Translations under genes and position numbers: made by a program
The notes under the pieces: generated by a model
What the model saw: only the letters and a program-made list of their open reading frames with translations
Told to the model about the DNA's origin: nothing
Databases searched by the model: none
DNA from: Salinimicrobium profundisediminis
Lineage (GTDB): Bacteria; Bacteroidota; Bacteroidia; Flavobacteriales; Flavobacteriaceae
Reading direction: 5' to 3'
DNA: 51,889 nucleotides
NCBI RefSeq assembly: GCF_026241755.1
Contig: NZ_JAPJDA010000028.1
Span: 1 to 51,889, forward strand
Shown here: piece by piece, positions 3,286 to 49,210 of the stretch
How positions within the stretch are numbered: the stretch's first letter is position 1
How the letters are laid out: each line of letters opens with the position of its first letter

Positions 3286-3666
3286 TCACTCAGCCTTCAA
3301 ATAACCTGCTTTAATTTTTTCTGCGGAATAAATGCACAATGCAGCAAGGATGTAAATAACGATATCGAGCCATTCAAAATGATTCCCTAACACCATCGAA
3401 GCAATCCTATTATCCTGACGATTCAGAAGCGAAATGAGCCGGAAATACTGTGAAGCTTCAACAGCAAAGGCGAAAAACAGCACTCCAAAAATGGCATTTT
3501 TGACAGGAATATTAAAAAAGCTTTTTAAAAGGAAGTAGAGAAAGATGACCACCAGGAAATCTCCACCGTAGGGCCTAATGATCGTATCGTTTATAAAAGC
3601 AGCAATAAAAACTTCTGTAAAGAAAAGAAGAACAGCCGCCGCAAAATAATTGAAATGAAATTGCAC
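3286..3666 (-). CDS. DUF2809 family membrane protein
   Basis: 126 aa with four hydrophobic segments. The conserved block EVFIAAFINDTIIRPYGGDF and the later EASQYF segment are typical of DUF2809 (small VanZ-like membrane proteins of unknown function). It lies 19 nt downstream of the BLUF gene on the same strand, so the two probably share a transcript. A copy of the CAAAAATG-N-CATTTTTG palindrome lies inside the coding sequence (3486-3502) and is read as VKNAIFGV. Confidence 0.8.
   Translation of the reverse strand: MQFHFNYFAAAVLLFFTEVFIAAFINDTIIRPYGGDFLVVIFLYFLLKSFFNIPVKNAIFGVLFFAFAVEASQYFRLISLLNRQDNRIASMVLGNHFEWLDIVIYILAALCIYSAEKIKAGYLKAE
3486..3502. repeat. Dispersed palindrome CAAAAATG-N-CATTTTTG, copy within a CDS
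   Basis: Perfect 8-bp arms around a central G, inside the DUF2809 gene. Confidence 0.85.
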
Positions 3667-3685
3667 CCCGGCAAGCTAATAAAAA

Positions 3686-4099
3686 CTATAAAACCCTGGT
3701 GTCAATAAATGATTTTAGAATGTTTTTGATTTGCTGCTGGGTTTCGAGATCCATTCCCTTCACAGATTCGCAGTATTGGCTTACCAGTTCGGGCTTTGAA
3801 TATTCCGCTTCATCCAGATGTTCAACAATATAATGATCACAAGAGCCTTTTGAGAGGTCTTTTCCCACCACCTGGATAATGTTATTGTGACGGTGGTCTT
3901 CTTTTATACGCTGAAACAGCTCCAAAACTTTTGTCTTTTCTCCTTCCAGCACCTGAAAGAAATTGCCTTCAGAAAAAAGGAGCATTCCTTTAATATTTTC
4001 TTTGTTGTTCTTCTCCCGCCATTTGGGAAGTAAGGTTTCAATCTCGCCAACTGTAAAATTGTTGCTGGCGGTACTTATAAAACATATTGCATGCTCCAT
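3686..4099 (-). CDS. BLUF-domain protein lacking the photoactive Tyr
   Basis: 137 aa, a single BLUF (FAD blue-light sensor) domain. Seen: the IKGMLLFSEGNFFQVLEG core, with the flavin-contacting Gln at residue 49 and an Asn at 31, and the helix segment IKEDHRHNNI. Aligned with Slr1694-type domains (Tyr8, Asn32, Gln50), the residue matching the photoactive Tyr is Phe7, and the C-terminal Trp/Met strand is not recognisable (CDHYIVEHLD). The family normally controls c-di-GMP enzymes or regulators through protein contact. Loss of Tyr predicts no normal photocycle, so this may be a light-blind or non-flavin relative. It is upstream of the DUF2809 gene in a two-gene unit. Confidence 0.85.
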   Translation of the reverse strand: MEHAICFISTASNNFTVGEIETLLPKWREKNNKENIKGMLLFSEGNFFQVLEGEKTKVLELFQRIKEDHRHNNIIQVVGKDLSKGSCDHYIVEHLDEAEYSKPELVSQYCESVKGMDLETQQQIKNILKSFIDTRVL

Positions 4100-4243
4100 T
4101 AAAAGGGGTTTTTCAGTCCCAATTTAAAAAAGTATAGTTTTTATAAATCCTAAGAATTTCACAAATCCTTCATTTTAATGTAAAACCCACATTTCTTCGG
4201 AAGTGAATTTCTCCACAACTTCTTCGGAAAAAATCACCCCTCA

Positions 4244-4260
4244 AAAAAATGCCATTTTTG
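4244..4260. repeat. Dispersed palindrome, intergenic copy
   Basis: One mismatch in the left arm (A for the first C). It lies in the divergent gap between the BLUF gene and the DUF5916 gene. Two CTTCGGAA motifs sit just upstream. Confidence 0.75.
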
Positions 4261-4323
4261 GAAGGAATTTCCAGTAAAATTTCAGAAATAACCGAAATAG
4301 ACAAAAAACATTCAGCTTTACTG

Positions 4324-4345
4324 CAACAAATATGATTTTTTGTTG
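4324..4345. promoter_or_regulatory. Inverted repeat upstream of the DUF5916 gene (possible operator)
   Basis: Perfect 7-bp arms CAACAAA / TTTGTTG separated by 8 nt, about 20 nt before the ATG. No regulator can be assigned, and an AT-rich chance match is possible. Confidence 0.3.
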
Positions 4346-4365
4346 TCTATTAACTAAACTTCTTG

Positions 4366-47283: not shown

Positions 47284-47323
47284 TAATAATACAAATTAAA
47301 CAGTAATAACCGAATCTCATATC

Positions 47324-48289
47324 ATGTTAATAAGAAACCGCAGACTTAGAACAAATGAAGTAATAAGAGGCCTTGTGAGGGAAACTTCACTTACTCCAAA
47401 TGATTTTATAGTTCCTCTTTTTGTTGTGGAGGGAAAAAATATAAAGGAAGAAATTGCATCAATGCCTAATTACTTTAGGTACAGCCTTGACCTCCTGGAA
47501 AAAGAAGTAAAAGAACTCTGGGATCTTGGCTTAAAATCGGTACTCATCTTTGTAAAAGTGCCCGACAACCTCAAGGACAATAAAGGAACTGAAGCTTTAA
47601 ATAAGGATGGCCTAATGCAACGGGCAGTGAAGACCATCAAAGATGCCGTACCCGAAATGCTGGTAATGACCGATGTCGCTCTTGACCCCTACTCTTCTTA
47701 CGGCCATGACGGTATAGTTGAAAACGGGTACATTCTTAACGACCCCACAAAAGAAGTCCTTGCAAAAATGTCACTTTCGCATGTGCAGGCAGGTGCCGAT
47801 TTCGTTGCGCCAAGTGATATGATGGATGGCCGCATAAAAGCCATCAGAGAACTTTTGGAGCAGGAAAAGCATTTCAACGCAGGGATTTTAAGCTACAGTG
47901 CCAAATACGCTTCAGCTTTTTATGGTCCGTTTCGCGATGCCCTAGATTCGGCACCGGGATTTGGAGACAAGAAAACTTACCAGATGGATCCTGCCAACAG
48001 AGAGGAAGCCATTAAGGAAACGCTGCAGGATATTGAGGAAGGCGCCGACATGGTGATGGTAAAACCCGGCCTGTGCTACCTGGATATTGTGCGGGAGATC
48101 AAAAATACCGTAAATGTACCCGTTGCGGTTTACCAGGTGAGCGGAGAGTACTCGATGCTTAAAGCAGCGGCCGAAAAAGGCTGGCTTGATCATGATGCCG
48201 TTATGCTCGAACAGCTCACAGCTATTAAAAGAGCCGGTGCACAAATGATTGCAAGTTATTTTGCTAAAGATGCTGTCAAACTTTTATAA
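47324..48289 (+). CDS. hemB: Delta-aminolevulinic acid dehydratase (porphobilinogen synthase), non-zinc type
   Basis: 321 aa. Schiff-base lysines lie in [16 protein letters not shown] and [13 protein letters not shown]. The segment that carries three Cys in zinc enzymes reads [16 protein letters not shown] here, with no Cys, so a Mg2+-type enzyme is predicted. It makes porphobilinogen from two 5-aminolevulinates. It is the last heme gene of the cluster; only hemL is missing for the C5 route in this window. Confidence 0.96.
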
Positions 48290-48305
48290 CGGTCTACTTT
48301 TTGAG

Positions 48306-48313
48306 TAACTTTG
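48306..48313 (+). promoter_or_regulatory. -7 box TAACTTTG, near-leaderless
   Basis: Exact TAnnTTTG match, 4 nt before the GTG start of the next gene. Confidence 0.45.
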
Positions 48314-48317
48314 GCTT

Positions 48318-48665
48318 GTGCAGCAGCAGCCTAAAATAACAATAAAACTACTGGTCCTCTTCCTTGCTTTTTTCAGCATTGGAGGGGGATCAGGATATGC
48401 TTTTAATTTTTCTGAAGTACATGAAGAGCAATCGTCTTCTTCCGAAAAATTAGCTGCTGCCAATCCGCTTTCAGTGGCCTACAGGGAGAATTTGTTCCAG
48501 GAGCTTCCCGAGCTTCAGCAAAACCCCTGGCCCGCCATTTCTTCTTTAGGATTTAATTCTTTTAGCCTTTGCGAAAATCCATCAGGGGCATCCTATTTCA
48601 GCTTTAATAGAGATTTACGAAAGGATTTAAAAATTCAGCTTTTCCCCAAACATTTTTTCTTGTGA
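48318..48665 (+). CDS. Small secreted protein of unknown function
   Basis: 115 aa from GTG. An N-terminal hydrophobic stretch (LLVLFLAFFSIGGGSGYAF) looks like a signal peptide with a cut near residue 28. The rest is short, Ser-rich then aromatic (SYFSFNRDLRKDL), with no recognised domain. It lies 28 nt after hemB; a -7 box just upstream suggests its own promoter. Without a family match, existence is supported only by the signal peptide and start context. Confidence 0.5.
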   Translation: MQQQPKITIKLLVLFLAFFSIGGGSGYAFNFSEVHEEQSSSSEKLAAANPLSVAYRENLFQELPELQQNPWPAISSLGFNSFSLCENPSGASYFSFNRDLRKDLKIQLFPKHFFL

Positions 48666-48730
48666 ACGCCATCCTTTTTTGCAAAATATCAGGATAACAT
48701 AATAAATCGTTCACAATAAATTATATAAAA

Positions 48731-49210
48731 ATGGATACAGCATCCACCCTAATGGGTTTGGGACTACTAATCTTATTCATAGCTCCCGTTGGTTACCTCG
48801 TTTACAACCAGTCACACAAAGAGAAAAAACGAGCTAAAAAAATGGCATTTTTGGCAAGTAAGAAAGGCTATAATCTTGATGAAACTGAGAATACTCATGG
48901 TTTGTCTATAGGTCTTGATAAAACTGCCGGAAAGTTCCTCCTTTTGAGGTCTGCTGAAAAGGCCGATCTACAGGAAATCGATCTTAAAGACCTAATGAAG
49001 ATTGAGATCATCAAGATTGATGAAGATGAGAAAAACACTCAGGCTCTCGATGAGATAAGAGAGATCTCTCTCCTGCTGAAAAGCAAAAGCAACGAAGACA
49101 AAAGGCTTATTTTTTATGCCGAGGAAGAAGATCCTGTTACCGAGAAAAATAATCGGCTGGACAGGGCTATAAAATGGCAAAAAGCTCTTCAGAAGTATTG
49201 TAAGTCATAA
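48731..49210 (+). CDS. Single-pass membrane protein of unknown function
   Basis: 159 aa. One TM helix at the N-terminus (about 8-25), a very basic stretch (KEKKRAKKMAFLASKK), then a cytoplasmic domain with alternating strands (FLLLRSAEKADLQEIDLKDL; KRLIFYAEEED). A near-perfect palindrome copy (48837-48853) encodes the KMAFLA segment. I recognise no family. It is closed by a very strong terminator. Confidence 0.75.
   Translation: MDTASTLMGLGLLILFIAPVGYLVYNQSHKEKKRAKKMAFLASKKGYNLDETENTHGLSIGLDKTAGKFLLLRSAEKADLQEIDLKDLMKIEIIKIDEDEKNTQALDEIREISLLLKSKSNEDKRLIFYAEEEDPVTEKNNRLDRAIKWQKALQKYCKS
48837..48853. repeat. Dispersed palindrome within a CDS
   Basis: One mismatch (first C is A). Read as KMAFL, the same peptide as the degenerate copy in the 5'-nucleotidase gene. 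Confidence 0.7.

Follow-up and report, generated by a model that had tools for sequence, protein, structure and literature searches.

A rigidly spaced palindrome dispersed along the chromosomes of one Flavobacteriaceae genus, possibly the site of a dimeric protein

The window considered here, the whole stretch of 51,889 nucleotides analysed from Salinimicrobium profundisediminis, carries dispersed copies of CAAAAATG-N-CATTTTTG, a strict palindrome that recurs throughout the genome. We give about an even chance to the interpretation that it is the duplex site of a genus-specific homodimeric protein acting chromosome-wide, most probably a nucleoid-associated protein or a boundary factor and not a promoter regulator. 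Such a protein would bind the palindrome as double-stranded DNA, over a symmetric total contact of about 41 bp, and would act in that capacity along the whole chromosome. We infer the reading protein, its dimeric state and its chromosome-wide role from the rigid symmetry and 1-bp spacing of the site, the constraint on its core even within genes, and its genome-wide spread. Among the roles proposed in the earlier note, a protein site is accordingly the best supported, and the list as a whole holds in part.

Occurrence in the window and the genome

Each of the 13 places listed earlier holds the motif with 0-2 mismatches (13/13); palindrome coordinates are given throughout without strand. Seven copies are exact. 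The first, at 3486-3502, has G at its centre and lies within a weakly supported minus-strand ORF (3286-3666), and the second, at 6868-6884, located 39 bp past a stop between tandem genes, scores highest of all window sites against the matrix (42.0 bits). A pair at 9642-9658 and 9686-9702, likewise flanked by tandem genes, has a counterpart of identical geometry in the sister genome G009 (L196). The copy at 11034-11050, 3' of a gene, is the last before a low-GC stretch; that at 20193-20209, between convergent genes, is identical in G009, and the alignment stops at it in G010, G007, G004 and G005. The seventh, at 32031-32047, lies inside a terminator-like hairpin followed by a T run (32024-32061, -16.2 kcal/mol). 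One mismatch is seen at 4244-4260 and 23264-23280, both between divergent genes, at 33585-33601, which spans a stop codon and differs by one second-arm base in each of G010, G006 and G011, and at 48837-48853, in a gene. Two mismatches are seen at 21620-21636, which has the flanks ATACCTGC...GAAGGTAT and counterparts in G009, G010 and G008, and at 32910-32926, spanning a stop codon. Beyond the list, a weak copy at 29543-29559 and degenerate ones at 42871-42887 and 47763-47779 lie in genes with two mismatches each. Further degenerate copies are found at 38235-38251 and 49682-49698 (three mismatches each, matrix scores 25.6 and 19.8) and at 43011-43027 (score 17.8). Plus-strand rows alone were used in the multi-genome column alignment.

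Shuffled sequences gave no exact copy against the seven in the window, and the 21 places with up to three mismatches compare with a shuffle mean of 1.29 and a largest value of 4. The whole genome has 192 exact copies against 0 of the reversed control, and hence the palindrome is neither limited to the window nor a product of chance, an origin that both comparisons rule out. This genome-wide count had been set beforehand as the check that might refute the claim, which it upheld. The centre base varies over A, C, G and T as stated in the earlier note, and the supposed fixity of the arms holds for the seven exact copies only, failing in the others. The greater abundance of half copies stated in the earlier note is only weakly borne out (CAAAAATG, 25 with 18.8 expected; CATTTTTG, 14 with 7.8), the expectation being derived from the window's own 6/7-mers and the counts taking in halves of full sites. 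Copies are indeed absent from the accessory island at 11.1-20.1 kb, inside which none of the 19 matrix sites over 14 bits falls. The copy-free stretch (11051-20192) has in its middle the lowest GC of the window, about 0.385 (0.385-0.387), and contains a large PDC-S37/Hhe-like helicase-nuclease gene (12439-18231).

Structure of the unit and constraint between species

Across 860 kb of G009 there are 108 inverted AAAATG/CATTTT pairs with a spacing of 1, and no other spacing between 0 and 39 is represented by more than 4; a symmetric matrix recovers 186 sites in 460 kb that score above the best control. Most of the matrix information lies next to the centre, at positions +1 and +3 to +6, unlike the situation in a hairpin loop. 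Outward from the free centre base, each half reads CATTTTTG and then a weaker RVASSYnTTTT, suggesting that the contacted stretch would extend symmetrically over about 41 bp. Full half-sites in the same 860 kb number 20, of which 13 have a whole AAAATG partner, 4 the inner G and 3 neither, and lone full half-sites number 6-16 per motif-rich genome (9 in G009 as a whole). Weaker half-sites standing alone exceed the control somewhat (212 versus 110, over 460 kb) and are partly conserved, with 10/246 core positions changed versus 36/300 for CATTTT elsewhere.

Between G000 and G009, the core (offsets 1-6) differs at 2/108 intergenic and 3/216 coding positions (1.4-1.9%), as against 12-13% in the flanks (9-17% by sub-range over offsets 9-30), a difference with Fisher p values of 4e-5 (intergenic) and 6e-8 (coding). 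Coding copies retain a weaker form of the flank preference, and their flanks pair hardly more than shuffled partners do (2.11 against 2.06 of 7 pairs); these unpaired flanks, together with the conserved centre, disfavor an RNA or single-stranded DNA hairpin as the unit. Among 32 sampled G000 sites (up to two mismatches) matching G009 blocks, 26 align through with the motif gap-free and 6 are unaligned over the site. Alignable orthologous places show point differences, not insertions, although in several species the alignment is interrupted at certain sites, 20193 among them.

Distribution along the chromosome

Matrix sites in G009 are densest in convergent regions (1.95 per kb), followed by tandem (0.77-0.85), divergent (0.42) and coding (0.24) regions, copies being biased to gene 3' ends and away from divergent regions; by number, the majority of relaxed matrix sites lie in genes (177/278). 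In 86 blocks of 10 kb from G009, site density correlates with GC (Spearman 0.62), and the low-GC blocks of this sister genome are also site-poor, low GC being read here as a sign of recent import. Of the 140 exact sites in G009, 136 are spaced nearly at random (KS p 0.43). They show a mild gradient (Rayleigh p 0.007), which is confounded with GC. A terminus or origin domain was rejected, as matrix-site density does not match this gradient: the 200-kb block at 0-0.2 Mb has 66 matrix sites and two other blocks have 76 and 78, and the one site-poor block, at 0.54-0.74 Mb with 27 sites, is of low GC.

Restriction to a single genus

The 15-mer AAAAATGNCATTTTT occurs at chance level, 0-4 times per genome, in 393 genomes of the family outside the genus and 0-3 times per genome in 246 genomes of the phylum (the two draws having 14 genomes in common), and 108-296 times in three of the four genus members drawn. 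The palindrome appears to have a single origin, within one genus of the Flavobacteriaceae. Within the genus, G004 has 55 exact sites and G003 and G001 are motif-poor. No other palindrome stands out as a replacement in 400 kb of G003, and a shift of specificity in that genome was accordingly rejected. Against Salegentibacter, nucleotide identity in matches over 200 bases is no more than about 64-75%. A GC of 0.41-0.45 is found in most of the motif-rich stretches sampled; S. sediminis, also of Salinimicrobium, is given a GC of 41.7% and a genome of 3.48 Mb (PMC6767994). The species, running from almost no motif through a weak to a sharp one, offer a natural series for the rise of a genome-wide DNA code.

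Functional interpretation

The cognate protein was sought through the HTH_ParB domain in 12 genus genomes and was not found: 11 of the 12, including motif-poor G003, have one match each and none has a second, G001 (74% complete) having no match. The single HTH_ParB protein in each of these 11 genomes, G003 among them, argues against a ParB/Noc-type paralogue as the reader. Three further observations speak against the preferred interpretation. The excess and partial conservation of lone weaker halves are not needed by a strict site of this kind, most relaxed matrix sites are by number in genes, and the near-random spacing in G009 differs from that of the known chromosome-organising sites, which are confined to a domain.

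It is possible, though on balance unlikely, that the palindrome is instead a tag for self-recognition or DNA uptake, with competent cells preferring tagged DNA and preferential recombination multiplying the copies, in the manner of the uptake sequences of Neisseria and Haemophilus. The hundreds of copies, the growth of copy number within one clade, the scarcity in low-GC DNA, the additional use of the inverted form as terminators and the excess of some lone weaker half-sites (see above) are all consistent with this. The full half-site is, however, seldom alone (3/20 without any partner base), so that a single-orientation unit is not over-represented by itself beyond the weaker lone halves, and no uptake signal in the form of a rigid palindrome is known to us. 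The earlier idea of an uptake signal thus survives with the palindrome as the unit, and not the half-site. In the same family, Riemerella columbina prefers its own DNA in uptake, its uptake sequences being candidates only (PMC7965970).

A tag would also accord with the presence of the palindrome inside integron-like attC sites of the genus. It adjoins attC-like arms in 7/9 cases in G011, at 3/3 sites in G009 and at 4/4 arms in G002, where the four look alike, lie near contig ends and amount to one distinct sequence. No attC-like arm was found beside any of 55 sampled G000 sites with up to one mismatch, and those chromosomal copies hence do not have the appearance of attC remnants. Rather doubtfully, the 41-bp palindrome might mark kin DNA for a dimeric protein restricted to the genus, either a receptor or a factor in recombination, and integron cassettes might have captured this tag in attC as a means of moving from one species of the genus to another. 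If true, this rigid palindromic self-tag for DNA exchange would be a new form, and new in Bacteroidota. Chromosome architecture and a palindromic self or uptake tag are both possible as roles, and either a nucleoid protein code or such a tag would be new for the phylum as far as the literature was searched.

A genus-specific bidirectional terminator or transcript 3'-end element is improbable. Among 82 intergenic copies, 25 form six or more of the seven flank pairs, where 3.2 would be expected, and 23 of these 25 also have a T or A run; density is highest in convergent regions. However, a stable stem with a U run is thereby confined to 23/82 sampled intergenic and 1/36 coding copies, the coding copies mostly lacking such flanks with their core equally constrained. 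Furthermore, the hairpin at 32031 is kept in relatives with a drifted centre, the exact centre being lost in several, which indicates that termination does not depend on the motif. The 16 fixed bases are also more than termination needs, to our knowledge. Terminator-like hairpins at the copies look like a secondary use.

An element of the HIP1 type, its abundance tied to DNA methylation or repair, is highly improbable. Sixteen fixed bases and a 41-bp consensus are longer than any methylase target known to us. With HIP1 the element has in common its many copies, its palindromic form and its confinement to one clade (PMC4390886).

Spread as a REP-like or MITE-like mobile element by a RAYT/Y1 transposase is scarcely credible. 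Y1_Tnp matches are present in 9/12 genus genomes (8 over cut-off), including one in the window, and missing from motif-poor G003 and G001. Nevertheless, the window RAYT gene is preceded by different palindromes of its own, GCTCCAGAGGAGCG, and G004, with its 55 exact sites, has no Y1_Tnp match, two observations that contradict the REP-like idea of the earlier note and led us to reject such an origin. Discrete insertion relative to orthologues is likewise not seen, 26/32 sampled sites aligning through with no gap in the motif. A phage origin was rejected, since each of 21 viral contigs carries a single exact copy and, in the stretches examined, none besides it with up to two mismatches.

Comparison with known systems

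With REP/BIME elements and their RAYT, the palindrome shares dispersal, intergenic bias and RAYT genes in most genus genomes; it differs in that the window RAYT has its own palindrome, copies occur in genes, and evolution is by point changes in place. Integron attC sites of the genus hold the palindrome in their interior, in contrast to the sampled G000 sites with none of 55 beside an attC-like arm. HIP1 of cyanobacteria is likewise a palindrome that is iterated many times within a restricted clade and whose function is unsettled, but it is GCGATCGC, 8 bp and GC-rich, whereas the present one is AT-rich, spans 17-41 bp and favours 3' intergenic regions.

The uptake sequences of Neisseriaceae (DUS) and Pasteurellaceae (USS) are similar in having hundreds of lineage-restricted copies, scarce in recent imports, with inverted pairs used as terminators and a T-tract beside the core. 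They differ in that here a rigid, 1-bp-spaced palindrome is the unit and lone full half-sites are rare. The sites of matS/MatP, SlmA and Noc are, like the present ones, short duplex palindromes of fixed spacing, theirs being read by dimers, and constraint on such a palindrome is observed here too. The genus lacks a second HTH_ParB protein of the Noc type, and in place of confinement to one chromosomal domain there are many more copies, spaced near-randomly over the whole chromosome and restricted to a single genus.

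Abundance and anatomy of the palindrome

The window contains seven exact copies of the 17-bp palindrome CAAAAATGNCATTTTTG and 21 places within three mismatches of it (shuffle mean 1.29). All 13 motif places listed in the earlier note are found among these 21, each with at most two mismatches. Exact matches to CAAAAATGNCATTTTTG total 192 across the whole genome that holds the window (4.04 Mb in 101 contigs), and the reversed pattern has none; by arithmetic, the exact-copy density of the window is nearly three times the genome average (7 versus about 2.5). In 460 kb of G009, another genome of the genus, the core AAAATG-N-CATTTT occurs 79 times versus 7 for the next palindrome of equal size. 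The inverted pair is present 108 times at spacing 1 in 860 kb of the same genome, and at most 4 times at every other spacing from 0 to 39. A symmetric weight matrix built on G009 shows the highest information at positions +1 and +3 to +6 and lower values at +2 and +7 to +9, followed by a flank preference of R V A S S Y n and then T at +16 and +17. In the 36 coding copies sampled, two of the three frames are used, giving K-N-x-I-F or K-M-x-F-L.

Phyletic patterns

Exact copies in the other genomes of the genus, G001 to G011 in order, number 0, 6, 1, 55, 54, 22, 62, 65, 140, 73 and 37, with the G001 and G008 genomes being about 75% complete. None was found in any of 28 genomes from other genera and families. 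The pattern AAAAATGNCATTTTT occurs 296, 14, 246 and 108 times in the four genus members of a family draw (G000, which holds the window, G002, G009 and G004), 0–4 times, on a par with controls, in 393 family genomes from outside the genus, and 0–3 times in 246 non-genus genomes drawn across the phylum, 14 of them shared with the family draw. In a midpoint-rooted tree of six proteins, one of which is absent for G001, G002 and G011, G001 (on a long branch) with G003, and then G002, lie outside all motif-rich genomes. Matrix sites above 15 bits number 0.25 per 10 kb in G003 (10, control 3), 1.12 in G002 (45, control 1), 1.5–2.7 in G004–G007, G010 and G011, and 3.2–3.5 in G009 and the window, as measured with the G009-trained matrix on blocks of 21 to 860 kb, of which the small ones give rough values. 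The simplest reading of this history is one gain, then sharpening of the motif.

Genomic context and probable secondary use in termination

Gene calls from a simple custom gene finder place 24 of 35 exact copies in G000, 17 of 25 in G011 and 42 of 65 in G009 outside genes, versus 13–19% of random positions; in the G009 sample, a few copies are double-counted where loci overlap and two more lie at locus edges. The samples represent 35 of the 192 exact sites of G000, about 61 of the 140 of G009 and 25 of the 37 of G011. Across 860 kb of G009, matrix-site density is 0.86 per kb in intergenic DNA and 0.24 per kb within genes; by absolute count, 177 of the 278 relaxed sites are genic. Among the intergenic classes, convergent regions have 1.95 sites per kb, tandem regions 0.77–0.85 and divergent regions 0.42.

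Site density climbs with GC content (Spearman 0.62 over 86 G009 blocks of 10 kb), from zero in three blocks below 0.38 GC to about 5–6 per 10 kb above 0.44, which is the opposite of chance behavior for an AT-rich word. The stretch at 11.1–20.1 kb, described in the earlier note as motif-free, is of this low-GC kind. It encodes a 1930-aa DUF4011-helicase-MTES_1575 nuclease protein (12439–18231), which PADLOC matches strongly to the candidate defense family PDC-S37 and partially to Hhe; an ion-channel gene (18241–19077) comes next. A region of about 130 kb in G009 (C1, about 560000–690000; L296–L302), with GC mostly 0.37–0.42 and nearly free of the palindrome, is a probable large genomic island. 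At the matching locus, G009 lacks a colinear equivalent of window positions 1–19400, although a site pair resembling 9642/9686, with identical geometry, is found elsewhere in that genome. The GH9-type glycoside hydrolase at 7064–9601 shows 88% amino-acid identity to Salegentibacter proteins; the DNA flanking their genes in Salegentibacter fails to match the window there.

With three gene-end copies excluded, six or more of the seven flank pairs are formed in 25 of 82 intergenic copies (3.2 expected) and in 1 of 36 coding copies (0.3 expected). At 32031 the hairpin is kept in aligned relatives, the exact center is lost in several, and the counterparts in G008 and G002 are ordinary terminator-like hairpins. 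Upon RNA folding of 12 copies, four fell far under shuffles (z < -3), all with extended flanks. Taken together, these results indicate that termination is a frequent secondary use of the palindrome and not the cause of the core constraint.

Constraint, turnover and the probable reader

We compared with G009 the 27 matrix sites above 18 bits in fetched G000 stretches alignable to G009 blocks, leaving unalignable sites uncounted. Within the core (offsets 1–6), 2 of 108 positions were changed at intergenic sites and 3 of 216 at coding sites; at offsets 9–30 the figure was 9–17%, depending on the sub-range. Choosing sites by G000 score masks changes on the G000 branch, so that neutral change might be expected at only half the rate; under that assumption, by arithmetic, about 21 core changes would still be expected versus the 5 seen. 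Among 32 sampled G000 places (at most two mismatches, with a match in G009 blocks), 26 align gap-free through the motif and six have no G009 alignment over the site. At 33585, three relatives are one arm base off the palindrome within unbroken surrounding sequence, so single-base changes can create or remove sites. At 20193, four species have an alignment that stops at the site, and hence gain or loss there may have involved an insertion or deletion.

The rigid dyad, the conserved center, the symmetric flank preference seen also in genes, and the constraint suggest that the palindrome would be read by a dimer on duplex DNA. We favor a putative chromosome-wide binding protein as the driving function; a search of the genus genomes for two candidate families did not recover a palindrome-binding protein. 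Lone half-sites in genes are intermediate in conservation (10 of 246 changed versus 36 of 300 for CATTTT elsewhere). The excess of weaker lone halves would suit the main rival, a palindromic self or uptake tag, but the rarity of lone full units argues against such a tag in its known form. An ordinary regulator as the reader is at odds with the low site density in divergent regions.

Relationship to integrons and REP/RAYT units

None of the four 17-mers, their version with N at the center, or AAAATGNCATTTT occurs in any paper of the collection searched. No title describing such a repeat was seen among the papers matched for flavobacterial uptake sequences, for Bacteroidetes uptake sequences with palindromes or for Salegentibacter palindromes, or, for over-represented palindromes in Flavobacteriaceae, among the matches listed (10 of 406).

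Integron-like attC sites were recovered in three species of the genus, G011, G009 and G002 (L040 2700–6300, L042 1975–3900, L213, L214 and L327–L330), and most of them contain the palindrome. In G011 it lies, with at most one mismatch, within 70 bp of seven of nine attC-like arms; in G009 it is present at three attC-like sites, and in G002 at all four arms. These four might be one repeat, being similar to each other, close to contig ends and represented by one distinct sequence. The palindrome persists inside nine different attC-like sequences, one from G002 and eight from G011, with 0–2 changes, although other interior positions are conserved as well. The sole exact copy of the motif-poor G003 adjoins, by eye, an apparent attC end. 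None of 55 sampled chromosomal copies in G000 has an attC-like arm beside it.

A RAYT-like Y1 transposase gene (46824–47222) is preceded by repeated GCTCCAGAGGAGCG palindromes, within a segment (46495–47280) that is absent from the aligned regions of G009 and G007. This segment is a REP/RAYT unit of a separate kind.
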